Source: Mucilaginibacter rubeus (GTDB taxonomy: Bacteria; Bacteroidota; Bacteroidia; Sphingobacteriales; Sphingobacteriaceae). From it: 64,000 bases of DNA. The notes beneath the pieces are model-generated. The model was not told the origin of the DNA, searched no databases, and saw only the letters and a list, made by a program, of their open reading frames with translations. Below are positions 1-45,096 of the stretch, piece by piece (the first letter of the stretch is position 1; the number at the start of each line of letters is the position of its first letter). The translations under genes were made by a program, and so were the position numbers. The stretch spans positions 434,001 through 498,000 of the forward strand of contig NZ_BMKD01000004.1 in the NCBI RefSeq assembly GCF_014643835.1, in the 5' to 3' direction.

Positions 1-625
1 GGGTTGAATCGCTGATATAACGCGGTGCTTCCAATTGCAGTTCATTCAAGTATTTCAGGCGGTCGTTCATACCAGGAACATCCAGAGGCATAAAACCGGC
101 GTTAACTAAAATACCGGCACGTTTCGGGCTTAAGATCTGCGAAAAACGTTCCCACGATGCAAATGCGGCTACCTTGTTTTCAAAACCTTTTTGCTTATTC
201 AGAAATTCAAGCAGGTTCATGTTGGGGTTATAGATCCCATCGTTGGTGTTCATCCGCTTATCGGGGAAACCGGTAAATATTTCATTGTATCCCGGGTATG
301 AAAAATGATACGGGTTGGCTACTTCATCCTTGCAGCCCAAATCACGGTTTCCATACAGTTGTCCTTTTTCAACTACCGTGTTCCAAAAAAAAGGCATCAG
401 CAGTTTTCGACGATCTGAGATTGCGTCGGCCCAGAAATTTTTACGCACCTCATTTTTATCATACGTATCATTTGAATTGATGATGGCCGAATCGGCACCA
501 CGGAAAACCTCCTGCCAGCGTAAACCATCGATGGTGACAATAACTACATTTTGAGTTTTGCGCGTTTGTGCAAAGAGGAGGGTAAAAGATGCTGAAAACA
601 GCATCACTAAGATCAGCTTTTTCAT
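1..625 (-). CDS. Alkaline-phosphatase-superfamily enzyme, partial (C-terminus outside window)
   Basis: Reading in from the left edge on the minus strand gives an open frame of 208 codons starting at the ATG at 623-625. It begins with a secretion signal (MKKLILVMLFSASFTLLFAQ), followed by VVIVTIDGLRWQEVFRGAD, the metal-binding start typical of the alkaline phosphatase/sulfatase/phosphodiesterase fold, and by SYPGYNEIFTG, which lies where the Ser/Thr nucleophile region is expected. The C-terminal metal ligands are outside the window, so the substrate cannot be told. It is probably a periplasmic or secreted phosphomonoesterase or phosphodiesterase. It lies downstream of susCD but after a terminator hairpin, so it is at best partly cotranscribed. 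Family call fairly sure; specificity unknown. Confidence 0.8.
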   Translation of the reverse strand, partial: MKKLILVMLFSASFTLLFAQTRKTQNVVIVTIDGLRWQEVFRGADSAIINSNDTYDKNEVRKNFWADAISDRRKLLMPFFWNTVVEKGQLYGNRDLGCKDEVANPYHFSYPGYNEIFTGFPDKRMNTNDGIYNPNMNLLEFLNKQKGFENKVAAFASWERFSQILSPKRAGILVNAGFMPLDVPGMNDRLKYLNELQLEAPRYISDST

Positions 626-641
626 AGGTCGTGTTTAATCA

Positions 642-670
642 ATAAAGGCCCCAAACTAAGGGGCCTTTAT
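642..670 (-). terminator. Hairpin between susD-like gene and phosphatase gene
   Basis: An 11-bp perfect stem (ATAAAGGCCCC pairing with GGGGCCTTTAT) has a 7-base loop and lies between the susD-like stop and the phosphatase start. It probably ends or attenuates the susCD transcript. The U-run is weak, so partial read-through is possible. Confidence 0.65.
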
Positions 671-690
671 ATAGTGTTATTTACGGTTTG

Positions 691-2301
691 TTATTTAAGC
701 AACCACATGATGCCATTGATATCATCACTGCCGCCAAACTGGCTTGTTAATGCCGCTTTGTAATTTGTAGCGTTAACAGTACGCTCTGACTGCGGATATT
801 CAAAACGTGTAGGGATACGGCTGCTATTACCCGTCCCCGGCCCGGTAGTGAATGCAGGTACACCTGTACGACGATAAGTGAAATATGACTCAAGGCCTGA
901 GTGACGGAACAACGCGAGATATTTTTGCTGTAATATTTGTGTAAGACCTGTTGCACCGTCGGCATATTTTACAGCAGGTTGCGCATAGTAGGTTGTCCAG
1001 TTAACAGTAACCGGGAACACATCATAGCTCGACTGGTCGGCTGGACCTTTGGTTGCGCCCGGTCTGTAAAAGTATGCCGAAAATATACTTGAACCGGCAA
1101 CTGTTGGGATACCATAATACTGGTACGATGCCTGGATACCATTAATATAATAGGTTTCGGCATTGCCTGTTGCCCAGCCGCGGTTAATACCTTCGGCAAT
1201 ATTGAACATCAATTCAGGGTAGCCTATCTGGATACTTGGCTCGCCTATATAAGTTGAATAAAAGTGTTTACGGTTAATGAACGAGTAGCGCTGTAAGGTT
1301 GCATTGTTATACATCACACCAAGGTCAAGACCCGGATCGGCACCTACAAATGAATCAAAACTTGTTGGGCTTTGTTTCAGCGTATCAACCAAATAACGTG
1401 AAGGCTCTGCAGTTACAAAAACCCTTGGATCTTTAAATTTAGTAAGCAAACCGATATAAGTTGCCGATGAGTTTTGCCTTGATCCGTTTTGACCAAAGTT
1501 ATCCGGGTTTTGAGGATAGTAGTTACTCGGCGCTACAAATTTATATTGCAGGTTATCGTCATTGCTGGTCATCAGCGGGTATTTAGTTGGATTACCAACA
1601 ATAGCCGCAAATTGTGCTTTTACATCAATATCAGCTGTTTTTTTACTTAATGCAAGCAATAACCTGATGTGGAAACTGTTTACAGTTTTTTGCCACTTTG
1701 TAAGATCATTACCAAAGTAGATATCGTTTGACAAAGCGGCACCAACCCCTGTACCGCCCGAATTTGGATCGGCAATCAGTTTGGTTAAGTCGGCATTAGC
1801 GGCTTCAAGCCATGCTAAACATTGTACCATTACATCTTTCTGCGCATCATATTTGGGAGTAAGGTTATCCAGGCCTTTCAACGCATCGGTCATTGGGATA
1901 TCACCTTCTTCGAGGCTCATTTTGCTGAAGAAGTAAGCCCTGAAAAATTTACCCATAGCTTCATACGGGTTAACGGCAGCGCCACCGGTTGCTGCAGCAC
2001 GCTGCTCCATTACTACTACGTTTTTTAACGTGTTGTAATAGTTATCGCCACCGTCGGCAAAGGCATCATAACGGTTATTGCCATAATAATCGTAGTTATA
2101 AAGGTAATATTGCGAATAGATCTCATTGCTTGATTGTGGCAAATCAGCCATCTTATTAAGGATCCCGTTGAATAATAATGATGCCGGCACAACGCTTGGC
2201 ACATTATTATTTTTGGTAAGGTCCTCAAAACTTTTCTTACATCCGGTTACTGTTAGCAAAGCAAACGCCGGCAGTATTAAAATTCTAAATATCTTTTTCA
2301 T
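691..2301 (-). CDS. SusD/RagB-family nutrient-binding outer-membrane lipoprotein
   Basis: This 536-residue protein starts with a lipoprotein signal ending in the lipobox TVTGC, so it should be exported and lipid-anchored at the outer membrane. The body matches the SusD-like class with the CKKSFEDLTKNNNVPS opening and YPELMFNIAEGINRGW-type helices near the C-terminal third. SusD proteins form the lid of a SusC channel and capture the nutrient. It sits 11-17 bp downstream of the susC-like gene and is surely cotranscribed with it. I use the ATG at 2301 because the signal peptide starts cleanly there; an ATG two codons upstream (2307) is equally in frame. Substrate is not readable from sequence. 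Neighbouring phosphonate and phospholipid genes suggest an organophosphorus ligand, which is inference. Confidence 0.93.
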   Translation of the reverse strand: MKKIFRILILPAFALLTVTGCKKSFEDLTKNNNVPSVVPASLLFNGILNKMADLPQSSNEIYSQYYLYNYDYYGNNRYDAFADGGDNYYNTLKNVVVMEQRAAATGGAAVNPYEAMGKFFRAYFFSKMSLEEGDIPMTDALKGLDNLTPKYDAQKDVMVQCLAWLEAANADLTKLIADPNSGGTGVGAALSNDIYFGNDLTKWQKTVNSFHIRLLLALSKKTADIDVKAQFAAIVGNPTKYPLMTSNDDNLQYKFVAPSNYYPQNPDNFGQNGSRQNSSATYIGLLTKFKDPRVFVTAEPSRYLVDTLKQSPTSFDSFVGADPGLDLGVMYNNATLQRYSFINRKHFYSTYIGEPSIQIGYPELMFNIAEGINRGWATGNAETYYINGIQASYQYYGIPTVAGSSIFSAYFYRPGATKGPADQSSYDVFPVTVNWTTYYAQPAVKYADGATGLTQILQQKYLALFRHSGLESYFTYRRTGVPAFTTGPGTGNSSRIPTRFEYPQSERTVNATNYKAALTSQFGGSDDINGIMWLLK

Positions 2302-2318
2302 AATCATCGTATGTTTTA

Positions 2319-5300
2319 TTAGAATGATACATTTAAGTTAAAACCATAGCTACGTACTGTAGGCGACTGCAATACAGTTGAAGAAGTAGCATAGTTATAC
2401 TGATCTAAATCCACATCCTTGAAGCGTTTGTCTCCGTAGAAGTATAGCAGGTTACGGCCATAAACCGATACCGATGCTTTTTTGATGAATGATTTATCAA
2501 GCCATGCTTTAGGGAAATCATAACCAAGGGTTACTTCACGAAGTTTTGAGAAGGTTTTGCTCATCAGGTTTGACTCGTCGACATTGTAATATTTACTTAC
2601 ATAATCCTGCACAAATACAGTTTTGCCGTTAGGAGCGTATTGCAAAGCACCGTAGTTAATAATTTTACCTGTGGCCGGGTCATAGTTAATAGCGGCACCA
2701 TTTGACACGGTTACGCCTTCGCCTACATAACTGCCGTTATAACCCTTTTTACCAAAGTTTTGCCAGTCTTTATAACGGGCGTCACCCAAAGCACCTGTAG
2801 CGGTTTCAATGTTTGCACCACCACGCATGGTTTTATTGTGCATGTAATCGATGATCACACCACCAACCGAACCGTCAAACTGGAAACCCATATTGAAGTT
2901 TTTGTAACGCAGTTTGTTACTGAAGCTCCACGAGTATTTGGCATTTTCGTTGCCTAAATATTGCGGAACCGGCAATGCTAATGGTTTACCGGCAGCATCA
3001 TTGATGATTTGGCCCTGAGGAGTTCTTGCAAAAGCGGTACCATATAGTTTATCGGTACGGTCGCCTTTTTTGAAGAATGTTTTGTAAGTGTCCTGACCCG
3101 GAGGCAACTCTTCATAAACATCTTTAAAGGTAGCTACGTTAACTAAAACATTCCAGCTAAAACCGCCGAGATTTTTGATAGGGGTGCCTTCTAATGAAAA
3201 CTCATAACCGGTTTTCTTGGTTTTTAAAGCGTTAAGATATAAAGTGGTGTAACCAGTAGCCGTTGAAATTGAGTTAGCTAAAATTTGCGGACCGTCAATA
3301 TATTGGAAAGTAGTAGCCGATAAACCTAAACGATTTTGTAAGAATTTGATATCGAAACCTTCTTCGTAGTTAACGCGAGTTGAAGTTTTGATATTTGGCT
3401 GATACAAAAAGTCAGATGCAGAAGCTGCCGGTTGGCTGTTATAGGGTTTACTGGTTAAGTAGAATGGGTTAAGCTGATAGCTTGGGCCGTTATAAGGTGA
3501 GTTATAAGTACTGCCGTAACCAAGCGGGTTTAAGAATAATGGATTTGAATTTGGATTGCTGGTAGTTGTTGAACCGCCGTAAACCGAAATTGCGTTAAAT
3601 GGGGCCGGGCCAATTGTTGAGCTTGAAGCATCGGCTTTTACTGTTGAGTAAGATGCCCTTGCTTTTAAGAACGAAATAACCTCGGGCAGTTTAACGTAAT
3701 CAGAGATCACAGTAGCTGCCGATACACTTGGATAGTAATAAGTAGTTACGTTTTGGAAAGCCGACGATTTATCGATGCGGCCGGTGCTTGATAAGGTAGC
3801 ATATTTACCAAATGTAGCGTCAATTGAGTAGTAACCGCTTAATACACGTTCGGCCGATGAGAAGTTGGTTGACTGTACAGCATTTTTTGAGTTGCTGAAA
3901 GCGTAAACTTCCGGTACGTTCAAATAATCTGTTGATGTCCAGCTTGAGTTGTAGTTAAAGCTGCGCAGGTTTGAACCAACTAAACCTGATAAGTTCACGA
4001 AGTTTTTGATAGTGTAGTTGTAGTTAACAAATAACTCGGTGTTGTTATCAAACAGGTTACGGCGGTCTTCTCGGTAATCGCCCTGGTTACCTTCACGGCC
4101 ATAAGGGTGGGCCGAAAATGGAAGGTCTTCAGTACGAAGGATGTTATACGTATCAATTTGTGAGCGCAAAGTAACATTTAAGTTATCGTTGATTTTGAAG
4201 TTACCTGACAAGTAACCGTAAACGTCGTTTTTGTAATGGCCGCGGGTCCATTTTTGAGTTAACAGGTAAGGGTTATGGTAACGGGTGTACTCGGCAAATA
4301 CCGATTGTACGCCTTCTTTACCTGGCTGCCATATTGCTTTTATATCCGGCGCGTTGATATTCCAGTCGGCACCTGTCCATACAGCAATGTTATAGATAAT
4401 ACTGTTAGGGCCGTATTGCACATCTGGAAAGTTATCAGTTGATTGCCTGTTAAAATCAACGTTCGCTTCAAATTTCCAACGTTTTGTAGGAGTGAACTGA
4501 GCGTAAAAGTTAGCATTGGCTATATCAAGGTATTGAGAAGGGATATAGCTTGTCTGGTGCTGTTGTGAAACTGAAAAACGGGTTACATAAGTATCACCAA
4601 CCGAACCTAATGATATGTTATTGTTGGTTTGGTAACCGGTTTTCAAAAAGTTTTTCAGGTTGTCTTTACCACGTGCAACCCATGGAGTGCCCTGGCGCAC
4701 GCCGTTAACAACCGGGCTGTCATATTGCGGGATTAACTGACCAGCAAAGTAAGGGCCCCAAACGTCGTAATCGCTGTCCACACCACCTGGTGCACCACCT
4801 TTACCATCAACAAAGGTATAAAAAGTGTTTTCACCCGGACCAAACAAGCTTTGGGTACGAGGGAAAGCAAGGAAGCCCGTATTCATTACCGTACTGCTGT
4901 TAATATCAACTGTCAAGCCTTTTTTGTTTTTCTCGCCTTTCTTAGTGGTAATTAAAATCGCACCGTTTTGTGCACGGCTACCATATAGTGCGGCTGCAGA
5001 CGGGCCTTTTAACACTGTATAGGTCTCGATATCATCAGGGCTGATGTTATAGGTATCAGTATTAATAGGAAAACCGTCAACAACATATAATGTAACCGAG
5101 TTACCCCTGATCAATACAGATGGGTTACCCAAAAGTTCGGCCGAAGGGCCTACTGATAAACCGGCCACTTTACCTGTTAAACCTGTAATAGGGTTAGGGT
5201 CGCGGGCCATGGTAACATCGGCACCGTTTACTGATTGGGTTGAGTAACCGATACGCCTGGTTTCTTTCTTTACACCAAGGGCTGTCACAACAACCTCATT

Positions 5301-5615
5301 TAAAGCCTTGCTATCGCCAATCATAGTTACGTTTATGGTTGTTTTGTTATCAACTACAACGTAAACCGGCGCGTAACCTACAAATGAGTAAATGAGTGTT
5401 TGACCGGCAGTTGCCGTAATACTGTAACGGCCATCAATATCGGTAACAGTGCCTTTATTTTGTTCTTTAATTCTTACACTTACGCCCGGCAGGGGCAAGT
5501 GTTTGTCATCGGTAACAGTACCGCTTATTTTGGTTTGTCCGAATAAAATAGATGGAGCTACGCAAAATAACAAAACCGTTATTACGGTTTTTAATCTCTG
5601 GTAAATCTTGTTCAT
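2319..5615 (-). CDS. SusC/RagA-family TonB-dependent outer-membrane transporter
   Basis: This 1098-residue protein has a signal peptide (to about residue 26), then a carboxypeptidase-regulatory-like domain (KISGTVTDDKHLPLPGVSV, residues ~29-110), a TonB-box-like stretch (LNEVVVTALG), the plug domain (~120-230, with LYVVDGFPINTD and SAAALYGSRAQNGAILITTKKG), and a long 22-strand-type barrel ending in LNVSF with a C-terminal Phe. It imports a substrate too large or scarce for porins, using TonB-ExbBD energy, with its SusD partner just downstream. It is preceded by a promoter block shared with the PhnX-like operon (see 5656-5700), which argues that it serves the same pathway. No FecR/ECF pair sits beside it. 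Family certain, substrate inferred. Confidence 0.95.
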   Translation of the reverse strand: MNKIYQRLKTVITVLLFCVAPSILFGQTKISGTVTDDKHLPLPGVSVRIKEQNKGTVTDIDGRYSITATAGQTLIYSFVGYAPVYVVVDNKTTINVTMIGDSKALNEVVVTALGVKKETRRIGYSTQSVNGADVTMARDPNPITGLTGKVAGLSVGPSAELLGNPSVLIRGNSVTLYVVDGFPINTDTYNISPDDIETYTVLKGPSAAALYGSRAQNGAILITTKKGEKNKKGLTVDINSSTVMNTGFLAFPRTQSLFGPGENTFYTFVDGKGGAPGGVDSDYDVWGPYFAGQLIPQYDSPVVNGVRQGTPWVARGKDNLKNFLKTGYQTNNNISLGSVGDTYVTRFSVSQQHQTSYIPSQYLDIANANFYAQFTPTKRWKFEANVDFNRQSTDNFPDVQYGPNSIIYNIAVWTGADWNINAPDIKAIWQPGKEGVQSVFAEYTRYHNPYLLTQKWTRGHYKNDVYGYLSGNFKINDNLNVTLRSQIDTYNILRTEDLPFSAHPYGREGNQGDYREDRRNLFDNNTELFVNYNYTIKNFVNLSGLVGSNLRSFNYNSSWTSTDYLNVPEVYAFSNSKNAVQSTNFSSAERVLSGYYSIDATFGKYATLSSTGRIDKSSAFQNVTTYYYPSVSAATVISDYVKLPEVISFLKARASYSTVKADASSSTIGPAPFNAISVYGGSTTTSNPNSNPLFLNPLGYGSTYNSPYNGPSYQLNPFYLTSKPYNSQPAASASDFLYQPNIKTSTRVNYEEGFDIKFLQNRLGLSATTFQYIDGPQILANSISTATGYTTLYLNALKTKKTGYEFSLEGTPIKNLGGFSWNVLVNVATFKDVYEELPPGQDTYKTFFKKGDRTDKLYGTAFARTPQGQIINDAAGKPLALPVPQYLGNENAKYSWSFSNKLRYKNFNMGFQFDGSVGGVIIDYMHNKTMRGGANIETATGALGDARYKDWQNFGKKGYNGSYVGEGVTVSNGAAINYDPATGKIINYGALQYAPNGKTVFVQDYVSKYYNVDESNLMSKTFSKLREVTLGYDFPKAWLDKSFIKKASVSVYGRNLLYFYGDKRFKDVDLDQYNYATSSTVLQSPTVRSYGFNLNVSF

Positions 5616-5655
5616 CTGCTAAAGTTTAAGGGTGAAACAGTCAAATTTTTCATGC

Positions 5656-5700
5656 AGCAATACTAAACTTTGTTTATTATTAGTAAACCAATTTAGTATT
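5656..5700 (-). promoter_or_regulatory. Promoter/operator block of susCD, shared with the PhnX-like operon
   Basis: Read on the minus strand, these 45 bases align without gaps to 9340-9384 on the plus strand with 37 identities. The last 15 bases (AAGTTTAGTATTGCT) are identical. The block holds TAGTATTG, one base from the Bacteroidota -7 consensus TAnnTTTG, and a GTTT about 19 bases further upstream in place of the -33 TTTG. The implied leader to the susC ATG is about 37 bases. ACTAA-type half-sites at the upstream end could be a regulator site. Confidence 0.6.
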
Positions 5701-5792
5701 AAGCTATACTTAACTTGATGTTCACCCTGTGTTAAGCAGGTGATTTTTGTAACAGGCAGATTATATATTAATCACAAAAACTTAATATGATA

Positions 5793-6377
5793 TTATTCGT
5801 TTACCACCTGCAGATGCGCCAGGGCAATAGCTTTTAAATGATCAAGGTTATTTACGGGTACATACATTTCCTTGGCCATGTCGTCCCAGTAGCGCAGTCT
5901 GATGATAAGCTCGGCATCCTGGTTTAGTTCAAATTCGGCTGCTTCATCAGCAGTCATCACGCCTCCTTGAAACTCAAGGGTAGCTTTACTGGCATCCGAC
6001 AAACGGTTATAATATTCGGGGTATTTATAGGTAAGATATCTTTTGGCAATTACATGGCCCTGCACCAGGTTAGCAACCCTTTCAGAAAACCCACGCTCTA
6101 ACAGGTAATCGGCACCCAGGCGCTCATGGTCAACATTGCCCATGCCATCCATACTTCCTGCTTCTTCGGCATCGGCACAAAGATGCCCTATATCATGAAA
6201 AAAAGCGGCAAGTACAACTTCATCGTCATAGCCTTCGGCTTCAGCGAGTGAAGCTGCCTGCGACATATGCTCCAGTTGGGAAACAGGCTCTCCTATATAA
6301 TCGGCATCGCCAAATTTTTCGTATAAAGAAAACACTTCATCAACTACAGCTTTCGGATTATATTGAGATGGTGCCAT
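5793..6377 (-). CDS. phnZ: PhnZ-like HD-domain oxygenase (phosphonate degradation HDIG protein)
   Basis: This 194-residue HD protein has the layout of the mixed-valent di-iron oxygenases of phosphonate breakdown. It keeps the metal ligands H37, H61-D62 (FFHDIGH), H84, H108 and D165. It also has the YIGEP motif (Y27, E30) that corresponds to the substrate-gating Tyr/Glu of PhnZ. PhnZ converts (R)-2-amino-1-hydroxyethylphosphonate to glycine and phosphate. Ordinary HD phosphohydrolases lack this YxGE lid, so the oxygenase reading is preferred. PhnY, the 2-oxoglutarate dioxygenase that normally makes the hydroxylated substrate, is not in the window. The gene is divergent from an XRE-cupin regulator and upstream of susCD in the same direction, with a 177-bp gap. 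Confidence 0.82.
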   Translation of the reverse strand: MAPSQYNPKAVVDEVFSLYEKFGDADYIGEPVSQLEHMSQAASLAEAEGYDDEVVLAAFFHDIGHLCADAEEAGSMDGMGNVDHERLGADYLLERGFSERVANLVQGHVIAKRYLTYKYPEYYNRLSDASKATLEFQGGVMTADEAAEFELNQDAELIIRLRYWDDMAKEMYVPVNNLDHLKAIALAHLQVVNE

Positions 6378-6621
6378 GCAATTAAAATTTTTAGGTGCAA
6401 ATAAACAGCATGCAGGTTAGGTAATTATTAAATATTCATGAAATATATCAATCAGAACCGATTTAACATTAAATTTTAATACAACAGGGCCGCTTATATT
6501 GTTAAGACAGACAATTTCAAAACGCACGTATTGTTTATTGAAACTTAACTGATACAACAATATTATATAAATATCCGTTAACATTTACACTATACTGTTC
6601 AAAGCGTAACAAAAAAATCAT

Positions 6622-6651
6622 TTTGGATAAATAGCCTGATTAATTACTTTG
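6622..6651 (+). promoter_or_regulatory. Candidate promoter of the XRE-cupin regulator
   Basis: TTTG at 6622-6625, an 18-base spacer and TTACTTTG at 6644-6651 resemble the Bacteroidota TTTG / TAnnTTTG promoter with one mismatch in the -7 box. The start codon follows 22 bases later, giving a short leader. The rest of the 296-bp phnZ/regulator spacer is AT-rich, and I see no copy of the susC/PhnX-like promoter block in it. Confidence 0.4.
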
Positions 6652-6673
6652 CGCACCAAATAACCTGCTATAG

Positions 6674-7252
6674 ATGGAAGAAGACATACTGATACAGATC
6701 AGTAACCGGATAAAAGAACGCCGCCGGGAAAAAAATATAACCGTACAGGAACTTGCTATAAGGGCTAACGTAAGCAAAGGCCTGATATCCCAAATTGAAA
6801 ACAGCCGTACCATTCCATCGCTTATCGTACTGATAGATATTATTAAAGCACTGGAGATAGATTTGAACGAGTTTTTTAAAGATATGCGTTCAAAAAGCGA
6901 TCATCTCCCAGTTTTGGTAAAGCGCAAACACGAATACGATCATTTTGAAAAAGAACATGCCGATGGTTTTCATTATCAGCGCATTTTCACCCAATCAATA
7001 AGCCAAAGTACTGTTGATATCGTAATATTGGAGCTTGAACCCGATGCCTCCCGTCCGCTTGTGGAAACAGAAGCGTTTGAATATAAATATATCCTGTCGG
7101 GCCAGATAGCCTACCAGTTTGATGACGACACCATAACCCTTAACCAGGGCGATAGCATGCTCTTTGACGGGCGCATCCCCCACACTCCAAAAAACATGGG
7201 CGATACCACGGCCAGCATGCTGGTGGTATACTTTTTTGAAGAGAAGAAGTAG
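6674..7252 (+). CDS. XRE-family transcriptional regulator with C-terminal cupin
   Basis: This 192-residue regulator has an N-terminal helix-turn-helix of the Xre/lambda-Cro type (residues ~8-65, RREKNITVQELAIRANVSKG followed by LISQIENSRTIPSL). A small-molecule-binding cupin follows (~110-188, with LNQGDSMLFDGRIPHTPKN). Proteins with this layout usually sense a metabolite made or used by the neighbouring genes. It is divergent from the phnZ-like gene and about 1 kb from the susC promoter, so it is a reasonable candidate regulator of the phosphonate genes. That role is inference from position. Confidence 0.88.
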   Translation: MEEDILIQISNRIKERRREKNITVQELAIRANVSKGLISQIENSRTIPSLIVLIDIIKALEIDLNEFFKDMRSKSDHLPVLVKRKHEYDHFEKEHADGFHYQRIFTQSISQSTVDIVILELEPDASRPLVETEAFEYKYILSGQIAYQFDDDTITLNQGDSMLFDGRIPHTPKNMGDTTASMLVVYFFEEKK

Positions 7253-7338
7253 TTTAGTGAATGGTTGATTGGGTTGATTAAGTTGAGTGGTGAATTGGAT
7301 ATAGAATAATACACTTTTATCAACAGAAAAAACTCCGG

Positions 7339-8151
7339 TTAGTGCGTCCACTCGGTAGGTGCTTTGCCAAATTCTTTTTTAAACGAATGGGAAAAATGGG
7401 CCAGGCTTTCAAATCCTAAATCAAGGTAAATTTCAGATGGTTTCCGGTTTTTATTTTCGATGAGGTGGCGCGCCTCCTCAAGCCGCCTGGTTTGCAGCCA
7501 GTGCCGGGGCGAAGTATCAAACGTTTTTTGGAAATCGCGTTTAAATCCCGCAAGGCTCCGACCGGTAAGTTGCGCGAATTTCTCGACAGGTACGTTAAAA
7601 TGAAAATTGCTGAGCATAAATTTTTCCAGGTCGATTTTATGAGGCTCCGAAAAATCGAACAGGAAATCTTTAAGCTCGGGCATAGTATGTAGTAATAAGT
7701 GTACGGCTTCCCTTACTTTCAGCATGCCCAGTTGTTTGGTTATTTTTTCGTTGGGATGGTGCACATAAGGAATCACAGATTGAAAAAAGCCCCGCAGAAA
7801 TTCACTTTCGGGGATTTTGATATTGGGCTGACCAGTGTATTTCCGTCCCGGCTCTATCTGTTCTTCCAGGGCAAGCTGCCGCAGCATATCTTCTTTCAGG
7901 CAAATGATGATGGTTTGATAGTCACCGCCATCAACGGGCATTTTGACGAGTTCGCCCAATTGATTTTTACGGATCAGCATCATTTCGCCGCTTTTCATAG
8001 AGATTTTTTGATTAGCGGTTTCGATACTGAATTGCCCTGAAACCTGTAGTACCAGGGTGCTATGCTCAAAAAAGCCTACCTTTTCCTTTCTCATCCTCGA
8101 GAAAAAAGAATAAAAGATAACGCCAGGAATTATTTCGGTTGGATTAGTCAC
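7339..8151 (-). CDS. AraC-family transcriptional regulator
   Basis: This 270-residue protein has an N-terminal sensing domain (~1-130, cupin-like, with a SGEMMLIRKNQLGE turn) and a C-terminal AraC/XylS double helix-turn-helix (~165-268). The DNA-binding part includes FAQLTGRSLAGFKRDFQKTF, TSPRHWLQTRRLEEARHLIE and DLGFESLAHFSHSFKKEFG. The overall form resembles the ExsA-like subgroup. It lies downstream of the aldo/keto reductase on the same strand with a strong terminator between, so it needs its own promoter in the AT-rich gap of about 50 bp. Its likely target is the direct repeat upstream of the reductase (9230-9259). Ligand unknown. Confidence 0.9.
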   Translation of the reverse strand: MTNPTEIIPGVIFYSFFSRMRKEKVGFFEHSTLVLQVSGQFSIETANQKISMKSGEMMLIRKNQLGELVKMPVDGGDYQTIIICLKEDMLRQLALEEQIEPGRKYTGQPNIKIPESEFLRGFFQSVIPYVHHPNEKITKQLGMLKVREAVHLLLHTMPELKDFLFDFSEPHKIDLEKFMLSNFHFNVPVEKFAQLTGRSLAGFKRDFQKTFDTSPRHWLQTRRLEEARHLIENKNRKPSEIYLDLGFESLAHFSHSFKKEFGKAPTEWTH

Positions 8152-8167
8152 TTTATGTAAATATATA

Positions 8168-8200
8168 AAACAGAAGGGGCTTATGCAGCCCCTTCTGTTT
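8168..8200 (-). terminator. Strong terminator after the aldo/keto reductase
   Basis: A perfect 14-bp stem (AAACAGAAGGGGCT with its complement) and a 5-base loop are followed on the minus strand by TTTTATATAT. The stem overlaps the reductase stop codon at 8199-8201. It separates the reductase transcript from the AraC gene. Confidence 0.85.
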
Positions 8201-9170
8201 ATCGTTGCAGGTATGTACCGCCCAATATTGCGCCTTGTGCAAAAGTGGTGTTAAGTGTATTCATTTCATCGGCACTAAATTCAATTTGCATAGCCTGTAT
8301 GTTTTCCGGCAGGCGCGATCTGCGGCTCATGCTCACCAGTGGCATAATGTTAACACCCTGGGCGTTTACCCACGCAATAGCAAGTTGGGTAGGCGTATAG
8401 CCTTTGTCGCTGGCCATTTGTTTTAATACTTCAACTTTTTCAAGGTTTTTCACCAGGTTTTCTCCCTGGAAACGTGAAAAGTGATTATGATAGCTATCTG
8501 CCGGAAGCGGCGCTTTCATATCGCCCGTAAGTAAACCTTCGGCGGTATTGGCAAATGCTACTACGCCAATGCCCAGTTCTTTAGCAGTAGGCAGCAGATC
8601 GTTTTCAATTTGCCTGTCAGCTAATGAGTAGCCTATTTCCAACGCGGTTACCGGGTGTATGCTGTTGGCTTTGCGTAACTGATCGGCTGTAATTTCAGAA
8701 ACACCAAGGTGGCGTACTTTACCTTCCTTAATCAGATCTGCAACGGTACCTATTACATCCTCTACCGGTACGCTGTTATCCAGCCGGCAAGGCTGATACA
8801 GGTCGATAGTGTCGATACCTAATCGCACTAACGAATAATTAATGAAATTTTTAATGGCTATAGGGCGAAGGTCTAAGCCAAGCCATTGACCATTATAAAA
8901 AATAGCGCCAAATTTTACGCTGATAAACGCGTCGTCCCTGCGGTCTTTGATGGCTTTGCCCACCAACAACTCATTATGACCGGCACCATAAAAATCGCCG
9001 GTGTTTAAAAAGTTGATGCCACTATCTAAAGCTGCCTGTATGGTAGCGATACTTTCGTTTTCATCATTGGCCTTGCTGCCCCAAACTGATGACATGCGCA
9101 TACAGCCCAGGCCCAGTTTTGAAACCAGCGGGCCGTTTTTGCCCAAATTTATTTTCGTTATATTTCCCAT
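8199..9170 (-). CDS. Aldo/keto reductase
   Basis: This 323-residue protein belongs to the NADPH-dependent aldo/keto reductase superfamily. It shows LGLGCMRMSS near the N-terminus, the catalytic Asp/Tyr region FLNTGDFYGAGHNE (~55-67), YQPCRLDNSVPVEDVIGT (~123-140) and the C-terminal nucleotide-binding turn VSMSRRSRLPENIQA. One oddity is NTGDFYG, where most members have DTADxYG; the Asp and Tyr are still present. The substrate is unknown. It may reduce an aldehyde, and a paired AraC activator suggests an inducible response rather than a housekeeping role. Confidence 0.9.
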   Translation of the reverse strand: MGNITKINLGKNGPLVSKLGLGCMRMSSVWGSKANDENESIATIQAALDSGINFLNTGDFYGAGHNELLVGKAIKDRRDDAFISVKFGAIFYNGQWLGLDLRPIAIKNFINYSLVRLGIDTIDLYQPCRLDNSVPVEDVIGTVADLIKEGKVRHLGVSEITADQLRKANSIHPVTALEIGYSLADRQIENDLLPTAKELGIGVVAFANTAEGLLTGDMKAPLPADSYHNHFSRFQGENLVKNLEKVEVLKQMASDKGYTPTQLAIAWVNAQGVNIMPLVSMSRRSRLPENIQAMQIEFSADEMNTLNTTFAQGAILGGTYLQR

Positions 9171-9226
9171 AGTTGATATTTAATTTAAAACAAAGATCAG
9201 GTATCTTGTTCATGGGTAAATTTCTT

Positions 9227-9263
9227 GCACGGCTCAATTTACTTGTCTGTGTGGCTCAAATTT
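9227..9263 (-). promoter_or_regulatory. Direct-repeat operator upstream of the aldo/keto reductase (candidate AraC site)
   Basis: Two copies of GGCTCAA with similar flanks lie at 9231-9237 and 9253-9259, exactly 22 bp apart, or two helical turns. Same-face tandem repeats are what AraC-family activators usually bind. They sit just upstream of where the -33 region of the minus-strand reductase should lie; GATCTTTG at 9191-9198 (minus strand) is a one-mismatch -7 box. Confidence 0.5.
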
Positions 9264-9339
9264 TTACGATAACTCTTTGTAAAACTCGCACACAAACTAT
9301 GGGAACAAAATCGACCATTTACCACCTTAACCAAACCTT

Positions 9340-9384
9340 AACACTAACTTAGTTTAATTTTAATAAAATAAGTTTAGTATTGCT
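9340..9384 (+). promoter_or_regulatory. Promoter/operator block of the PhnX-like operon
   Basis: This is the plus-strand partner of the susC block. TAGTATTG at 9375-9382 serves as the -7 box, and the ATG follows 21 bases after it. Two palindromes are visible: ACTAACTTAGT at 9343-9353 and GTTTAG-N5-CTAAAC at 9372-9388. The second overlaps the -7 box and expected start point, a usual repressor position. Confidence 0.6.
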
Positions 9385-9403
9385 AAACATTATAAATGTT
9401 GTT

Positions 9404-10090
9404 ATGAGTATAAAATTAGTGGTATTTGACATAGCCGGCACCACGGTTAAAGACGATCATGAAGTTAGCAAAGCTTTCAGGGCTGCCATGCAAAAGTCCG
9501 GTTATGAAGTTGGATTGGAAAAAATAGATCCGCTGATGGGGTATGAAAAAACCCTCGCTATCCGCAAAATGCTTACTGAACATGAGACTGATCAATCAGT
9601 TATTACGGACGAGCTGGTAACCACTATCCACAAAGAATTTGTGCAGCAAATGATTAACTTTTACCAGTTTGAGCCTGGCATTGAACCCCTGCCAAACGTA
9701 GAGGAAACGTTTGCTAAACTGCATGAGCAGGGCGTTAAAGTTGGTATCAATACCGGCTTTTCGCGCGATATTGCTGATACCATTGTTAACCGCCTGCAAT
9801 GGCAGGAAAAAGGGCTGATCGATTACGTTGTTGGATCGGACGAAGTTGAACTTGGTCGCCCGCACCCCTTTATGATCCAAAAAATGATGCTTGAGGCCGG
9901 CATAACTGATGCTTTGGAAGTTGCTAAAGTGGGGGATACCGAGGTTGATGTACGCGAAGGGCAAAACACCGGCTGCAAATACACTATAGGTGTAACCACT
10001 GGTATTTTTACCCGTGCCGAGTTGGAAACCTACAATCCTACCCATATTATTGACGACATTGCACAAGTAGTTGAGATTATAAACCAATAG
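9404..10090 (+). CDS. Phosphonatase-like HAD hydrolase (PhnX-like)
   Basis: This 228-residue haloacid-dehalogenase-superfamily protein is closest in layout to phosphonoacetaldehyde hydrolase (PhnX). Motif I is FDIAGTTV with nucleophile D9 and Ala at +2, as in PhnX, instead of the usual acid. The C1 cap holds LMGYEK with K49 near the position of the PhnX Schiff-base lysine. Motif III is GRPHP and motif IV is VGDTEVDVREG. It is shorter than PhnX (about 260-270 residues). It most likely cleaves a C-P bond of an aldehyde phosphonate, or a close phosphoester analogue, in the cytoplasm. I use the ATG at 9404; a TTG 24 bases upstream is in frame but lies inside the promoter box. The next gene starts 4 bp after the stop. 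Confidence 0.85.
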   Translation: MSIKLVVFDIAGTTVKDDHEVSKAFRAAMQKSGYEVGLEKIDPLMGYEKTLAIRKMLTEHETDQSVITDELVTTIHKEFVQQMINFYQFEPGIEPLPNVEETFAKLHEQGVKVGINTGFSRDIADTIVNRLQWQEKGLIDYVVGSDEVELGRPHPFMIQKMMLEAGITDALEVAKVGDTEVDVREGQNTGCKYTIGVTTGIFTRAELETYNPTHIIDDIAQVVEIINQ

Positions 10091-10094
10091 TATA

Positions 10095-11432
10095 ATGAGG
10101 CTGATTGAAAGTTTACGTGCAAAAGTAGCCCAATGGCCTTATGCACTGATTTCAGTTTTGGCAGCGGTTTCAGCCTTCGGAACGTATACATCCATGTATG
10201 CCTTTCGTAAGGCATTTGCAGCGGCAACTTTCACAGGTCATGAGTATTTTCATGTTGATTATAAAGTTTGGCTGGTTATAGCTCAGGTTATAGGCTATAT
10301 GAGCAGCAAATTTTACGGCATAAAGTTTATAGCCGAAGTTAACAGCAAAACCCGCGCCCGTTATATTTTAATCCTGATCGGGATTGCCTGGGCGGCGCTG
10401 CTGGCCTTTGCTTTTGTACCGGCCCCATGGAATATCGTGTTTCTTTTTATCAACGGTTTTCCGCTTGGCCTTATCTGGGGGCTGGTTTTTGGTTATTTGG
10501 AAGGCCGCCGCTCAACAGAGTTCATGGCCTCGGTATTGTCCATCAGCCTCATTTTTGCGTCGGGTTTTGTAAAAACAACCGGACGAACTTTAATAACCGG
10601 TTTCCATGTAAACGAATACTATATGCCATTTTTAACAGGGGCGGTGTTTGTGTTGCCGCTTTTATTTTTTGTAGGTTGTATGGAGCTTATCCCTGCCCCT
10701 ACCGCCGAAGATAAACGTCTGCGTTCGGAACGTACACCGATGAATGCAGCAGAGCGTAAACAATTCGTCATCCGTTTCTTGCCGGGTATTATCCTCACGC
10801 TCATTGTTTATGTATTACTCACCATTATGCGCGACGTGCGCGACAATTTTGAAGTAGAGATCTGGGCCAGCCTGGGCATTAAGGATAACAGCATCTTTAC
10901 TACTACCGATATTAAAATTTCGCTGGTGGTTTTAGTCGCCATGAGTTTACTGATCCTTGTACGAAAAAACCTTCGTGCTTTTAGTATCATCCATTTAATG
11001 ATCATTGCCGGTTGCGCGCTGGTAGGTATATCAACCATCCTGTTTACCCTTAAAATGGTAAGCCCAACCTTATGGATGACCTTGGTAGGCCTCGGCTTAT
11101 ACATGGGCTACGTTCCCTACAATGCTATATTTTTCGAGCGGATGATAGCATCGTTCCACTATAAAAGCAACGTGGGCTTTATCATGTACATTGCCGATTC
11201 GATGGGCTACCTTGGCAGTGTTAGTGTTTTGCTGGTAAAAGAACTTGGTCGCCCCTCAATAAGCTGGGGTGCCTTTTTCCGGGAAGGCGCAATGACGGTA
11301 GCCATTGTTGGCGGAATTTGCGGTATTTTATCGCTCATTTACTTTTTGCAAAGCGCTGCCCGTGATAAAAAAAAGATAATTGCGGGTGAAACTGATGAGC
11401 AACAAACGCTAACTTTCAATCCAGCCAATTAA
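10095..11432 (+). CDS. DUF5690-family multi-spanning membrane protein (MFS-like carrier)
   Basis: This 445-residue protein has about eleven or twelve hydrophobic segments and a large charged loop near residues 205-235 (PAPTAEDKRLRSERTPMNAAERKQ). That gives two halves, like a major-facilitator carrier. It resembles DUF5690 proteins, which have no assigned substrate. The start lies 4 bp after the PhnX-like stop and the FAD oxidoreductase follows 55 bp later, so it belongs to the operon. No PhnCDE-type ABC system is present in the window. It is therefore the natural candidate for inner-membrane uptake of the phosphonate after SusCD passage. That function is inference. Confidence 0.8.
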   Translation: MRLIESLRAKVAQWPYALISVLAAVSAFGTYTSMYAFRKAFAAATFTGHEYFHVDYKVWLVIAQVIGYMSSKFYGIKFIAEVNSKTRARYILILIGIAWAALLAFAFVPAPWNIVFLFINGFPLGLIWGLVFGYLEGRRSTEFMASVLSISLIFASGFVKTTGRTLITGFHVNEYYMPFLTGAVFVLPLLFFVGCMELIPAPTAEDKRLRSERTPMNAAERKQFVIRFLPGIILTLIVYVLLTIMRDVRDNFEVEIWASLGIKDNSIFTTTDIKISLVVLVAMSLLILVRKNLRAFSIIHLMIIAGCALVGISTILFTLKMVSPTLWMTLVGLGLYMGYVPYNAIFFERMIASFHYKSNVGFIMYIADSMGYLGSVSVLLVKELGRPSISWGAFFREGAMTVAIVGGICGILSLIYFLQSAARDKKKIIAGETDEQQTLTFNPAN

Positions 11433-11487
11433 ATCAATTGAGGTTTGAACAATTCAAACCAGTGAACTATAATGAACTATTGAACTA

Positions 11488-12624
11488 ATGAACAACAATA
11501 AAAGTGCAATAATCATAGGCGCAGGCATTGTAGGCTTGGCTACGGCCCGCGCTTTGGCCATTCGCGGCTATAAGGTAACGGTATTTGAGCGCAATGAACG
11601 CGCGGTGGGCGCTTCCATCCGTAACTTTGGTATGGTATGGCCGATAGGCCAGGCTACAGGGCCAATGTTTGAGCGCGCCATGCTATCAAAAAGCATTTGG
11701 AAAACAATTTGTACCGAGGCTAAGATCTGGCATAATGAGGTTGGTTCGCTACACCTTGCTTATCACGATGATGAACTGCAGGTAATTGAAGAGTATGTAG
11801 ATGTAAACAAGCAATACCGTGATTGCGCTGTGCTAACTCCAGGCGAAGCTGTTTCAAAATCGCCGGCAATCAATACCGATGGATTGAAAGGCGCCCTGTG
11901 GAGCGGCGAGGAAATGATTGTTGAATCGCGGGTAGCCGTCGGGCAGGTGGCAGCTTACCTCGCCGAAAAATTCGGTGTCGAATTTCACTGGAACACCGCT
12001 ATCAGCCGCATTGAACATCCAAAGGTAAGTTCAGGCACCCAAAGCTGGGAAGCCGACGAGATCTATATTTGCAGCGGCGCCGATTTTGAAACGCTTTATC
12101 CTGAACTATTCGCGCAAACACAGATCACCAAATGCAAACTCCAAATGATGCGTCTGGTTACTCAACCTGATGAATGGCGCATAGGCCCATCGCTATGTGG
12201 TGGCTTGTCTATGATCCATTACCCAGGTTTCCAGGCGGCATCTTCATTGCCTGCTTTGCGCAAACGCTACGAAGAACAGTATGCTACCCACCTGAAATGG
12301 GGCATCCATGTTATGGTATCACAAAACGGCAGCGGCGAGCTTACCATAGGCGATTCGCACGAATATGGTTTAGTTCATGACCCGTTTGATAAGGAATTTA
12401 TTAATAATTTGATAATTGAATACTTACATACATTCGCCAATTTTAAAGATTGGAAAATGCTGCAGTCATGGCACGGCATCTATCCTAAAATGACCAACGG
12501 CGCGTATGAGCTTATTGTTGATATTGAGCCCGGGGTAACCCTCATCAATGGCCTCGGCGGTAACGGCATGACCCTGTCATTTGGCCTATGCGAGCAAGAG
12601 ATTGCCAGGCGGAAAGACGGTTAG
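11488..12624 (+). CDS. FAD-dependent oxidoreductase of the phosphonate-cluster type
   Basis: This 378-residue DAO-fold flavoenzyme opens with the Rossmann motif GAGIVGLATARALAIRG (residues 9-25). VGASIRNFGMVWPIGQ follows near residue 41, the signature of the family (TIGR03364-like) that co-occurs with PhnX-like hydrolases, and a C-terminal FAD-closing GLGGNGMTLSFG lies near 356. Members of such clusters have been shown to oxidise 2-aminoethylphosphonate or its N-methyl form to phosphonoacetaldehyde. Other proposals involve the 1-hydroxy derivative. It would deliver the substrate of the preceding HAD enzyme. Soluble and cytoplasmic, with no signal peptide. Family sure; exact substrate not. Confidence 0.88.
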   Translation: MNNNKSAIIIGAGIVGLATARALAIRGYKVTVFERNERAVGASIRNFGMVWPIGQATGPMFERAMLSKSIWKTICTEAKIWHNEVGSLHLAYHDDELQVIEEYVDVNKQYRDCAVLTPGEAVSKSPAINTDGLKGALWSGEEMIVESRVAVGQVAAYLAEKFGVEFHWNTAISRIEHPKVSSGTQSWEADEIYICSGADFETLYPELFAQTQITKCKLQMMRLVTQPDEWRIGPSLCGGLSMIHYPGFQAASSLPALRKRYEEQYATHLKWGIHVMVSQNGSGELTIGDSHEYGLVHDPFDKEFINNLIIEYLHTFANFKDWKMLQSWHGIYPKMTNGAYELIVDIEPGVTLINGLGGNGMTLSFGLCEQEIARRKDG

Positions 12625-12639
12625 TTTTTTAGACCATAG

Positions 12640-12815
12640 TCCATGGTCGATAGTCCATGGATTGAAAAAACTGCATATCTTGGTTTTTCAATAAGCCAAC
12701 CATAGCTTATTGGCTATAACTATTGACAAAAACAATAACCAGGTCTATGAACTTTCGACCATAGACTAAAAACAAGAAAACCATGGTCTATGGACTATCG
12801 ACCATGGACTAAAAA
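12640..12815. repeat. Phrase-like inverted repeats of CCATAGTCCATGG type
   Basis: The spacer before the phospholipase gene holds several forward and reverse variants of a short word: CCATAGTCCATGG, CGATAGTCCATGG, GACCATAGACT, CCATGGTCTATGG, CGACCATGGACT. The left and right clusters are reverse complements of each other across about 130 bp. A smaller hairpin (AATAAGC / GCTTATT) lies between near 12690-12712. The right cluster runs up to the real start at 12823 and creates a false upstream ATG at 12790. Confidence 0.7.
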
Positions 12816-12822
12816 TAAAACT

Positions 12823-15378
12823 ATGTCTGATTCAAGGAGAGATTTTCTTAAAAAAGCAGCCCTATTAACCGGTGCAGCCGGCCTCGCCAGCATTTTACCC
12901 CAATCTATTCAAAAAGCAATGGCCATTAACCCGGCACCGGGCAGCACTTACCTGGATGCCGAGCACATTGTGATCCTGATGCAGGAAAACCGCTCGTTTG
13001 ATCATACTTACGGGATGCTGAAGGGGGTACGTGGTTATAATGACCCACGCGCTATTGATTTGCCCAACAAAAACAAGGTTTGGCTGCAATCGAACAAAAA
13101 AGGCGAAACGTATGCCCCTTTCCACCTTGATATCAAGAATACCAAAGCAACCTGGATGAGCTCGTTGCCGCATTCATGGAGCAACCAGGTTAATGCCCGT
13201 GACGACGGCAAATTTGACCAATGGCTTAACGTTAAGCGTAACGGTATTAAGGAATATTCCAACATACCTTTAACTATGGGTTTCCACAATCGCGAGGATA
13301 TCCCGTTTTACTATGCCCTGGCCGATGCCTTTACCGTTTGCGATCAAAACTTTTGCTCATCCCTGACAGGTACAAACCCAAACCGGTTGTATTTCTGGAG
13401 TGGTACTATCCGTGCCGAACAGCATGAAAACTCCCTTGCACACGTTTGGAATGACGATATGGATTATGGCACCCTCAACTGGGCTACCTTCCCCGAGCGT
13501 TTGGAGGATCATAATATATCATGGAAACATTACCAGAACGAAATTGCCATTGATACTGGTTTACAGGGTGAAGAAGATCCGTGGTTATCAAATTTCCAGG
13601 ATAACCCGCTGGAGTTTTTTGGCCAGTATAACATTAAACTTTACGATAAGCACATCGCCCATCTGCAAAAAAAGTCAACAGTTTTGCCTGATGAGATAAC
13701 CGCCCTTAAAAAACAAATTGCTGCTTTGCCGGCCGGCGATGCACATATAGATCATTTACAAAAGCAGCTTAAACAAAAACAACGCGACCTGGAGAACATC
13801 AAAAAAGACATGGCGAGCCTTGATCCTGGTAAATTTGCCAATCTTTCGCAACGCGAAAAAAACCTGCACCAAAAAGGTTTTGTAACCAATATCAATGATC
13901 CGCATTACCGCACTTTAAGTCCGCTGAAATATAATGATGATGGCACCGAGCGTGAAGTTTTAGTACCTAAAGGCGATGTATTACACCAGTTCCGTGCCGA
14001 TGTAAAAGGAAGTCAATTACCTACTGTAAGCTGGCTATCGGCCCCCGAGCATTTTTCTGACCATCCAAGCTCGGCCTGGTACGGTGCATGGTACGTATCT
14101 GAAGTGCTGGACATTCTTACCCAAAATCCCGAAGTTTGGAAAAAGACTGTTTTTATTTTAGCTTATGATGAAAATGATGGTTACTTTGACCATGTGCCTC
14201 CTTTCACCGCGCCTAATCCGCATAAACCGGGCACCGGTAAAGTATCAGAAGGTATCGACCCAAGCGTTGAATTCGTTACATTAGAACAGGAAAAAGCACG
14301 CAACAACTTCCCGGAAGTATTTGATCGCGAAAGCCCGATCGGTTTAGGCTTCCGTGTGCCGTTGGTAATTGCTTCACCATGGAGCCGCGGCGGATGGGTT
14401 AACTCCGAAGTGTTTGACCATACTTCAACCCTGCAATTTTTAGAGAACTTTTTAAGCCACAAAACTGGTAAAAAAGTAACCGAACCTAATATCAGCCAAT
14501 GGCGCCGTACCGTTTGCGGTGATCTTTCAAGCGTTTTCCGCCCATATAACGGCGAGAAGATCGAGAACCCTGAGTTTGTTGCAAGGGAAGCATTTTTGGA
14601 GAGCATTCACAAAGCCCAGTTTAAGAAACTGCCATCAGATTATAAGCTGCTTACCGCCGATGAAATTGCGCAGATCAATAAAGATCCGCATTCATCCCCA
14701 TATATGCCCCAACAGGAAAAAGGCATTAAACCTTCATCGGCACTGCCCTACCAGCTTTATGCCGATGGTAAATTAAGCGCTGATAAAAAATCGTTTGAGA
14801 TCAAATTTACTGCGAGTAACAAAGCCTTTGGTGCAAAAGCGTTGGGCTCACCATTTAACGTATATGCTCCCGGCAAATATGCTACGATGAATGATCCGCA
14901 GAAAATGGAAGATCTGCGTACCTGGGCCTATACCGTTAAAGCCGGCTATACCCTGGCAGATGTATGGCCGCTGCATGAATTTGAAAACGGCGAATATTAT
15001 TTACGCACCTATGGCCCTAACGGCTTTTTCCGCGAGTACCGGGGTAATACTGCCGATCCGCTGGTTGATGTTGTTTGCGAATACGAACAGGTTGCCGGTA
15101 AGTTAACAGGTAACATCTCCCTGAAAATAACAAATCATACAAGTAAGGCCCAAACTATTACGGTAACAGATCATGGCTACAAAACTCCCGATCATAAAGT
15201 TGCTGTAAAGGCAGGCTCAGGCGCAACCATTGCATTAAACTTAAGCAAAAGCCATAACTGGTATGATTTCAGTACAAAAGTTGACGGCTTTGATAAATTC
15301 GGTAAACGCTTTGCAGGTCGGGTTGAAACAGGAAGGTCAAGCTTCAGCGATCCATTAATGGGTAAAGAATTAGTATAA
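12823..15378 (+). CDS. Phosphocholine-specific phospholipase C, Tat-exported
   Basis: This 851-residue protein starts with a twin-arginine signal (SDSRRDFLKKAALLTGAAG). The phosphoesterase domain covers residues ~35-540, with the metal-binding HIVILMQENRSFDHTYG, SLTGTNPNRLYFWSGT and AYDENDGYFDHV. Two C-terminal beta domains (~640-850) are typical of bacterial PC-PLC/sphingomyelinase enzymes. It folds in the cytoplasm, is exported by Tat, and releases a phosphorylated headgroup from phosphatidylcholine- or sphingomyelin-like lipids. A charged coiled segment near 290-330 (KKQIAALPAGD, KQLKQKQRDLENIKKD) is an insertion. It follows the FAD gene in the same direction after a 198-bp repeat-filled spacer. 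I chose 12823 because the Tat motif starts there. Confidence 0.92.
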   Translation: MSDSRRDFLKKAALLTGAAGLASILPQSIQKAMAINPAPGSTYLDAEHIVILMQENRSFDHTYGMLKGVRGYNDPRAIDLPNKNKVWLQSNKKGETYAPFHLDIKNTKATWMSSLPHSWSNQVNARDDGKFDQWLNVKRNGIKEYSNIPLTMGFHNREDIPFYYALADAFTVCDQNFCSSLTGTNPNRLYFWSGTIRAEQHENSLAHVWNDDMDYGTLNWATFPERLEDHNISWKHYQNEIAIDTGLQGEEDPWLSNFQDNPLEFFGQYNIKLYDKHIAHLQKKSTVLPDEITALKKQIAALPAGDAHIDHLQKQLKQKQRDLENIKKDMASLDPGKFANLSQREKNLHQKGFVTNINDPHYRTLSPLKYNDDGTEREVLVPKGDVLHQFRADVKGSQLPTVSWLSAPEHFSDHPSSAWYGAWYVSEVLDILTQNPEVWKKTVFILAYDENDGYFDHVPPFTAPNPHKPGTGKVSEGIDPSVEFVTLEQEKARNNFPEVFDRESPIGLGFRVPLVIASPWSRGGWVNSEVFDHTSTLQFLENFLSHKTGKKVTEPNISQWRRTVCGDLSSVFRPYNGEKIENPEFVAREAFLESIHKAQFKKLPSDYKLLTADEIAQINKDPHSSPYMPQQEKGIKPSSALPYQLYADGKLSADKKSFEIKFTASNKAFGAKALGSPFNVYAPGKYATMNDPQKMEDLRTWAYTVKAGYTLADVWPLHEFENGEYYLRTYGPNGFFREYRGNTADPLVDVVCEYEQVAGKLTGNISLKITNHTSKAQTITVTDHGYKTPDHKVAVKAGSGATIALNLSKSHNWYDFSTKVDGFDKFGKRFAGRVETGRSSFSDPLMGKELV

Positions 15379-42473: not shown

Positions 42474-42479
42474 AACTAA

Positions 42480-44917: not shown

Positions 44918-44970
44918 GATTATAGTTCATTGGTTCACTTGTTCATTAGTTCATTGGTGCCTATCATTTA

Positions 44971-45052: not shown

Positions 45053-45096
45053 AAAATATTATTTCTTAACTCCGAAATCGAACATCCGAAATCAAA

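Follow-up and report, generated by a model that had tools for sequence, protein, structure and literature searches.

The first 15.4 kb of a 64,000-nucleotide stretch of Mucilaginibacter rubeus DNA (contig NZ_BMKD01000004.1, positions 434,001 to 498,000; "the window" denotes this whole stretch) contain two divergent gene groups. We consider it likely that they form a locus for scavenging phosphorus from ester-bound 2-aminoethylphosphonate (AEP), probably N-methyl-AEP, and R-1-hydroxy-AEP (HAEP). The leftward group comprises phnZ, susC, susD and the start of a gene for an exported alkaline phosphatase (AP)-superfamily enzyme; the rightward group comprises the genes for an XRE-cupin regulator, a PhnX-like HAD, DUF5690, a TIGR03364 FAD oxidase and a Tat phospholipase C (PLC). 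Family models recovered all of the SusC, SusD, PhnZ-like, PhnX-like HAD, DUF5690, FAD oxidoreductase and Tat PLC genes that an earlier reading of the letters and open reading frames (the sequence-only reading) had placed within 15 kb. The features are as follows.

2 to 625, minus strand: exported AP-superfamily phosphoesterase, N-terminal 208 residues, with a Sec-type leader recognized by eye; the gene continues past the window edge.
691 to 2307, minus strand: SusD-type outer-membrane lipoprotein, SusD-like_2 (PF12771, 217.8 bits; lipobox LTVTGC by eye).
2319 to 5615, minus strand: SusC/RagA TonB-dependent outer-membrane receptor (TIGR04056, 442 bits, above cut-off).
5793 to 6377, minus strand: PhnZ-type HD-domain diiron oxygenase (TIGR03276, 217.1 bits; cut-off 214.6).
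6674 to 7252, plus strand: XRE-cupin regulator (HTH_3 and Cupin_2).
7339 to 9170, minus strand: AraC regulator and aldo-keto reductase (AKR), between the XRE-cupin and phnX-like genes.
9404 to 10090, plus strand: PhnX-like phosphonatase (TIGR03351, 201.1 bits, under the cut-off of 218.9); alternative start TTG at 9380.
10095 to 11432, plus strand: DUF5690, predicted organophosphate:phosphate antiporter (OPA)-like transporter of the major facilitator superfamily (MFS) (PF18943, 546 bits).
11488 to 12624, plus strand: FAD-dependent aminophosphonate oxidase, putatively of the PbfD type (TIGR03364, 443.7 bits; cut-off 285.1).
12790 to 15378, plus strand: Tat-exported PLC/phosphoesterase, accessory (PF04185 and PF05506; twin-arginine leader by eye).

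The recurrence of this gene set was examined in 201 genomes of the family, 64 of which contained a TIGR03364 match above cut-off. Stretches of up to 20 kb around all 64 FAD hits (56 of at least 19 kb and 8 shortened by contig ends) were compared by tblastn (E ≤ 1e-12) with 35 control stretches lying 200–400 kb away in 27 of the locus-bearing genomes. DUF5690 was found in 61 of the 64 loci (58 of the first 60) and in none of the controls, as were the PhnX-like enzyme (45/64), the XRE-cupin protein (45/64), PhnZ (33/64), the window-type AP phosphoesterase (19/64) and PLC (13/64). SusC and SusD occurred together in 44 loci and 4 controls (SusC in 47 and 6, SusD in 44 and 4), PbfA in 7 and 1. Any exported phosphoesterase of our panel was present in 53 loci against none of the controls; because the FAD gene served to collect the loci, which in turn supplied the panel and the SusC/SusD queries, all of these contrasts are upper estimates, the last above all.

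Genome-wide searches gave a similar picture. The PhnX-like gene (E ≤ 1e-40) was present in 68 of the 201 genomes, including all 64 with the FAD gene, indicating that it lies elsewhere in the genome where it does not adjoin that gene. PhnZ (E ≤ 1e-30) was found in 35 genomes, every one with the FAD gene. A SusD orthologue, defined as having at least 48% identity (a threshold set after the list was seen, with only hits at E ≤ 1e-80 reported), was present in 41 genomes; 40 of these carried the FAD gene, within 15 kb in 37 cases and on a different contig in 3, and one (G187) did not. When named genomes were searched with a DUF5690 profile, clustering of the best 80 of 579 confirmed loci gave FAD in 55, XRE-cupin in 49, SusD in 43, SusC in 42, PhnX-like in 38, PhnZ in 31, and PLC and the AP phosphoesterase in 21 each. 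Among these 80, the closest named relative was Mucilaginibacter endophyticus (L091; DUF5690 92%), and largely the same content in shuffled order was seen in Chitinophagaceae (L114, L134, L136 and L141), Fulvivirga (L143), Cyclobacteriaceae (L147 and L157) and Ohtaekwangia (L153). Together, these results confirm that the association of the locus genes goes beyond chance. The sequence-only reading had proposed that a failure of SusCD and the PhnX-like operon to co-occur in relatives would speak against it; this comparison was made and co-occurrence was found.

The phosphonate enzymes retain the residues expected for catalysis. PhnX chains were the best solved relatives of the PhnX-like protein, and its putative Schiff-base lysine, presumably equivalent to Lys53 of Bacillus cereus PhnX, aligned with the K of MGYEK in the alignment with solved PhnX. 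All 77 aligned sequences, that of the window among them, have this lysine and the DxAGT motif (D17 and A19), which we take to hold the nucleophilic Asp of PhnX with an Ala two residues after it. The protein did not reach the cut-off of the PhnX equivalog TIGR01422 (119 bits against 220), nor that of TIGR03351; we consider that it would work like PhnX although it is not filed as PhnX. For PhnZ, the best solved relative was PhnZ itself (4mlm, 154 bits, compared with 130 bits for TmpB), and the TmpB model NF049941 scored 147 bits against a cut-off of 300. Residues Y27, E30, H61, D62, H65, H84, H108, K112, S130, R162 and D165 were identical in all of the 60–61 rows (of 61) carrying a letter at the position, and aligned in 4mlm with HD diiron ligands and substrate contacts, which we take to include Y24, E27, H62 and K108 in PhnZ numbering. 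The window PhnZ is therefore expected, as judged from these residues, to convert R-HAEP to glycine and phosphate.

The FAD enzyme had no close relative among solved structures; its two matches at E ≤ 1e-5 were chains named sarcosine oxidase and glycine oxidase. Its family, which the sequence-only reading had linked to AEP pathways, has since been tested biochemically as PbfD: PbfD1 carries the TIGR03364 annotation, and PbfD enzymes convert N-methyl-AEP and AEP to phosphonoacetaldehyde, the substrate of PhnX (PMC10590968). The window enzyme is thus probably a PbfD-type oxidase of N-methyl-AEP or AEP, with which its genome-wide pairing with the PhnX-like protein fits. The idea of the FAD and HAD enzymes as a phosphate-releasing pair was supported, but PhnZ, for which some loci have the HAEP lyase PbfA instead, adds a second C–P-cleaving branch that acts on HAEP. 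PbfA converts R-HAEP to phosphonoacetaldehyde, and none of the clusters in Table 1 of the published report holds both PbfA and PhnZ (PMC8154272). In our set, PbfA took the place of PhnZ in 7 of the 64 loci, and no locus had both; the PbfA model NF049939 passed its cut-off of 525 bits at these 7 places too, two of the proteins scoring 682 and 634 bits. A strict exclusion at the genome level was rejected, as G015 and G137 carry both genes at separate places. One locus (L195 in G020) lacks the FAD gene and combines an NPP-type enzyme with PbfA, PhnX-like, SusCD and DUF5690. None of the 201 genomes had a match to the amino-group remover PhnW (TIGR02326) at E ≤ 1e-60, a search that is uninformative since control genomes gave no match either. 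At L074–L090, mostly in other genera, a divergent TIGR03364 FAD type (28–30% identity to that of the window) fills the slot adjoining DUF5690. A zinc alcohol dehydrogenase stands beside the PhnX-like gene and a transporter at L234 (G189:C18), L075, L077 and L063, possibly a variant for hydroxyalkylphosphonates.

DUF5690 had been suggested to be the inward carrier, and our results support it as a probable inner-membrane carrier of aminophosphonates on the basis of fold, residues and linkage. Its structural model has the MFS fold with OPA members nearest, and profile–profile comparison with OPA gave E 7e-6 (probability 84%). In that comparison R38 and R246, invariant in 42 of 42 sequences, aligned with GlpT R45 and R269, which we take to be the phosphate-binding arginines. 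When the profile was compared with single sequences (GlpT, UhpT, UhpC and L052), matches were weak (E 0.005–0.15); R38 again stood opposite an Arg in GlpT and UhpT, and R246 did so in UhpC. Pfam does not recognize DUF5690 as MFS (MFS_1 E 0.16), and the profile gave one meaningless match (E 1.1) against PDB sequences. DUF5690 (E ≤ 1e-60) was present in 88 of the 201 genomes, including 63 of the 64 FAD genomes; in the remaining one (G030, locus L052), a transporter matching OPA models (TIGR00881, 204.9 bits, under the cut-off of 407.75) adjoins the FAD gene. An exclusive tie of DUF5690 to phosphonates was ruled out by a clade of 15 proteins (support 1.0) without locus neighbors. This subgroup comprises L215–L220, L222, L223, L225, L226, L228–L231 and L233, with printed members carrying 'MIFGFRKSF', in a tree that left out L221, L224, L227, L232 and L234. 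SusC, SusD and PLC adjoin DUF5690 at L227, and PhnX-like and alcohol dehydrogenase genes do so at L234, while no locus gene was found near it at L221, L224 or L232. DUF5690 is also present in Xanthomonadales (L160 of Rhodanobacter; L150; L146 of Dyella).

The AP-superfamily fragment, the phosphatase-fold enzyme of the sequence-only reading, corresponds to the first 208 residues of an exported protein of about 364 residues. Alone it had no Pfam or NCBIfam match at E ≤ 0.001; it shares 87% identity with the complete 364-residue protein of M. endophyticus L091, and a full-length relative matches PF01676. D32, S108, D237, H241, D283, H284 and H297 (L091 numbering), presumably ligands and nucleophile, were invariant in 19 of 19 relatives, and against solved structures the enzyme gave two weak NPP matches only (E 0.4 and 0.54). 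The best solved relative of the window PLC was the phospholipase C 9gy2 (445 bits). Relatives' loci also hold GDPD and NPP-type enzymes.

The SusD proteins of nine loci sampled across lineages all belonged to PF12771. Between the window and L038 (G001), DNA identity was 69% for SusD and 76% for SusC, and 90–94% for the remaining locus genes; compared with M. endophyticus L091, it was 85% and 90%, with flanks at 84–87%. The receptor pair thus varies separately from the pathway genes, and SusC/SusD (window 691–5615) seem, from these identities, to have been exchanged by recombination.

The XRE-cupin protein probably regulates the locus. Of the two regulators originally noted, it is the one that recurs; AraC was found in 1 of the 64 loci (and 1 of the 35 controls) and the adjacent AKR, unnamed in that reading, also in 1 (and no control). 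These two genes are common to the window and G001 and were not seen in L091, which also lacks a phnX-like gene at that place; they were rejected as system members and look like passengers. An alignment of 23 intergenic stretches, window included, revealed in the gap between phnZ and the regulator gene (window 6378–6673) a promoter-like TTTG ... TACTTTG near the regulator, which we take to be a Bacteroidota-type promoter. The 9-mer TACTTTGCC was present in the gaps of 7 of 23 relatives, and the TACTTT columns were mostly conserved; no clear palindrome that could be a shared operator was found in these 23 stretches. Elsewhere in the window, five MacB/FtsX-type permease genes lie in a row (40920–52975, minus strand).

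We propose the following mechanism, in which the FAD, PhnX, PhnZ and PbfA chemistry is that of published relatives. The source would be larger molecules, for example phosphonolipids or phosphonoglycans, carrying AEP or HAEP as phosphonate esters, and SusC and SusD would bind them at the surface before TonB-energized passage through the outer membrane. The AP-superfamily enzyme, with PLC where present, may cleave the P–O–C ester to release the aminophosphonate, which DUF5690 would carry to the cytoplasm, its two conserved arginines serving for the phosphonate group. There, the FAD enzyme would oxidize AEP or N-methyl-AEP to phosphonoacetaldehyde, the PhnX-like enzyme would cleave this via its Schiff-base lysine to acetaldehyde and phosphate, and the PhnZ branch would yield glycine and phosphate from R-HAEP. 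Co-occurrence supports the original proposal that the aminophosphonate locus has a SusCD of its own, but that phosphonate is the SusCD cargo is still something we infer. The presence of SusCD and a phosphoesterase together would make sense if the source were a polymer or a lipid. The plasma-membrane phosphonoglycan of Acanthamoeba reportedly contains both AEP and 1-hydroxy-AEP, according to the title of a 1973 paper. R-HAEP was first isolated from an Acanthamoeba polysaccharide (PMC8154272), and Bdellovibrio stolpii is described as having sphingophosphonolipids with HAEP head groups. Acanthamoeba phosphonoglycan would be a fitting soil source because AEP and HAEP are the substrates of the FAD–PhnX and PhnZ/PbfA branches. 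We raise only tentatively the more specific proposal of a SusCD phosphonate utilization locus serving AEP and HAEP bound to polymers or lipids, such as this phosphonoglycan or B. stolpii-type lipids, with DUF5690 as a new family of aminophosphonate carriers.

Several alternatives were weighed against phosphorus scavenging from ester-bound aminophosphonates. SusCD and the phosphoesterases might instead serve general scavenging of phospholipids or phosphodiesters in phosphate starvation, with DUF5690 carrying phosphate esters and the phosphonate enzymes playing a minor part. The Flavobacterium PusCD loci, which are induced by phosphate depletion and adjoin mono- and diesterases (PMC8115612), are a model for this, and the PLC of the window, the GDPD and NPP-type enzymes of relatives, and four Bacteroidota loci (L144, L145, L163 and L166) at which no locus genes besides the AP enzyme and DUF5690 were seen are all consistent with it. 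So is Rhodanobacter L160, where DUF5690 comes after two genes that by eye look exported and of NPP and GDPD type, and where none of the phosphonate enzymes used as queries was detected. However, 40 of the 41 genomes with the SusD orthologue also have the FAD gene, and what the 64 loci share, in a collection made via that gene, is aminophosphonate enzymes, while the type of phosphoesterase differs between them; we therefore regard this explanation as rather unlikely. Import of free aminophosphonates only, the exported phosphoesterases serving something else, appears improbable: some loci with FAD, PhnX and DUF5690 lack SusCD or a recognized phosphoesterase (the latter in 11 of 64), so the cytoplasmic pathway can function by itself, but a small free zwitterion would hardly need SusCD, and 53 of 64 loci have an exported phosphoesterase of some fold (by the biased panel). 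It is disfavored, and in our view very improbable, that SusCD is part of a system for using glycans or other carbon sources which lies by accident beside an independent phosphonate operon. SusCD pairs are common (up to 33 first-look SusD candidates among the genomes listed), susCD–phnZ runs divergently from the FAD operon, and 20 of 64 loci lack SusCD; yet no carbohydrate-active enzyme family was found among the scanned genes of 1–15378, phnZ precedes susC by 177 bp and is read in the same direction, and the association recurs in several families with differing gene orders and exceeds that in the controls.

Other observations count against scavenging from ester-bound aminophosphonates itself. 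The SusC–SusD pair is missing in 20 of the 64 loci, 16 of them among the 56 stretches of full length; SusCD is thus dispensable to the locus, and its cargo could be a phosphate ester rather than a phosphonate. The loci were gathered via the FAD gene with SusC/SusD queries of locus types, and the phosphoesterase query families were drawn from the loci, which biases the figure of 53/64 against 0/35. The PhnX-like protein is below the NCBIfam cut-off in the window and above it in only 21 of its 68 genomes. The OPA scores of DUF5690 overlap those of YfaV, DgoT, EmrD, LacY and CynX (E 0.12–0.46); 25 of 201 genomes have DUF5690 without the FAD gene; and of 20 extra DUF5690 places, 15 hold proteins of the separate clade and only L227 and L234 have locus-type neighbors.

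The sequence-only reading had regarded a SusCD system for phosphonates as new, which holds only in part: a Flavobacterium study already reports SusCD co-localized with phosphonate-degrading enzymes (PMC8115612), so this combination is not new. As in these Flavobacterium loci (PUS), the window SusCD adjoins phosphatases/phosphodiesterases. PUS were defined by induction on phosphate depletion, and the accessible PUS text, figures aside, names neither PhnX nor PhnZ (PMC8115612). The window-type locus differs in having an XRE-cupin regulator, an assigned AEP and HAEP pathway and DUF5690, and in its hosts, which are Sphingobacteriaceae, Chitinophagaceae and Cytophagales-type genomes rather than Flavobacterium. 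With the PbfD–PhnX pathway it shares the pairing of a TIGR03364 FAD oxidase and a PhnX-type hydrolase, but here the hydrolase is of the TIGR03351 type and linked to SusCD, DUF5690, an exported phosphoesterase and PhnZ; the word 'TonB' is absent from the accessible text of that paper (PMC10590968). The phnWX-pbfA and phnWX/phnWAY-phnZ clusters likewise add a PbfA or PhnZ branch for HAEP to an AEP pathway, never both in the clusters of Table 1 (PMC8154272), whereas in the window AEP enters the pathway by way of the FAD enzyme, and a system for surface uptake is attached. AepP, the OPA-family AEP permease of Pseudomonas putida (PMC8316502), is similarly a GlpT-related MFS carrier tied to AEP use, but DUF5690 is a separate Pfam family. 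Surface capture by SusCD followed by clipping recalls a polysaccharide utilization locus, with phosphoesterases where carbohydrate-active enzymes would stand. The word DUF5690 was not found in the freely available papers searched, and among the hits listed there for phosphonate together with SusCD, TonB and Bacteroidota, no other title or abstract opening described such a locus. The window locus is thus a well-supported variant of reported outer-membrane phosphorus systems, not a new kind. If our interpretation is correct, SusCD uptake would reach from glycans, and from organic phosphorus in Flavobacterium, to bound C–P compounds with an assigned pathway, and DUF5690 would gain a testable function. 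It would also draw attention to a source of phosphorus in soil that in our judgment is rarely considered, possibly the phosphonoglycan of amoebae.

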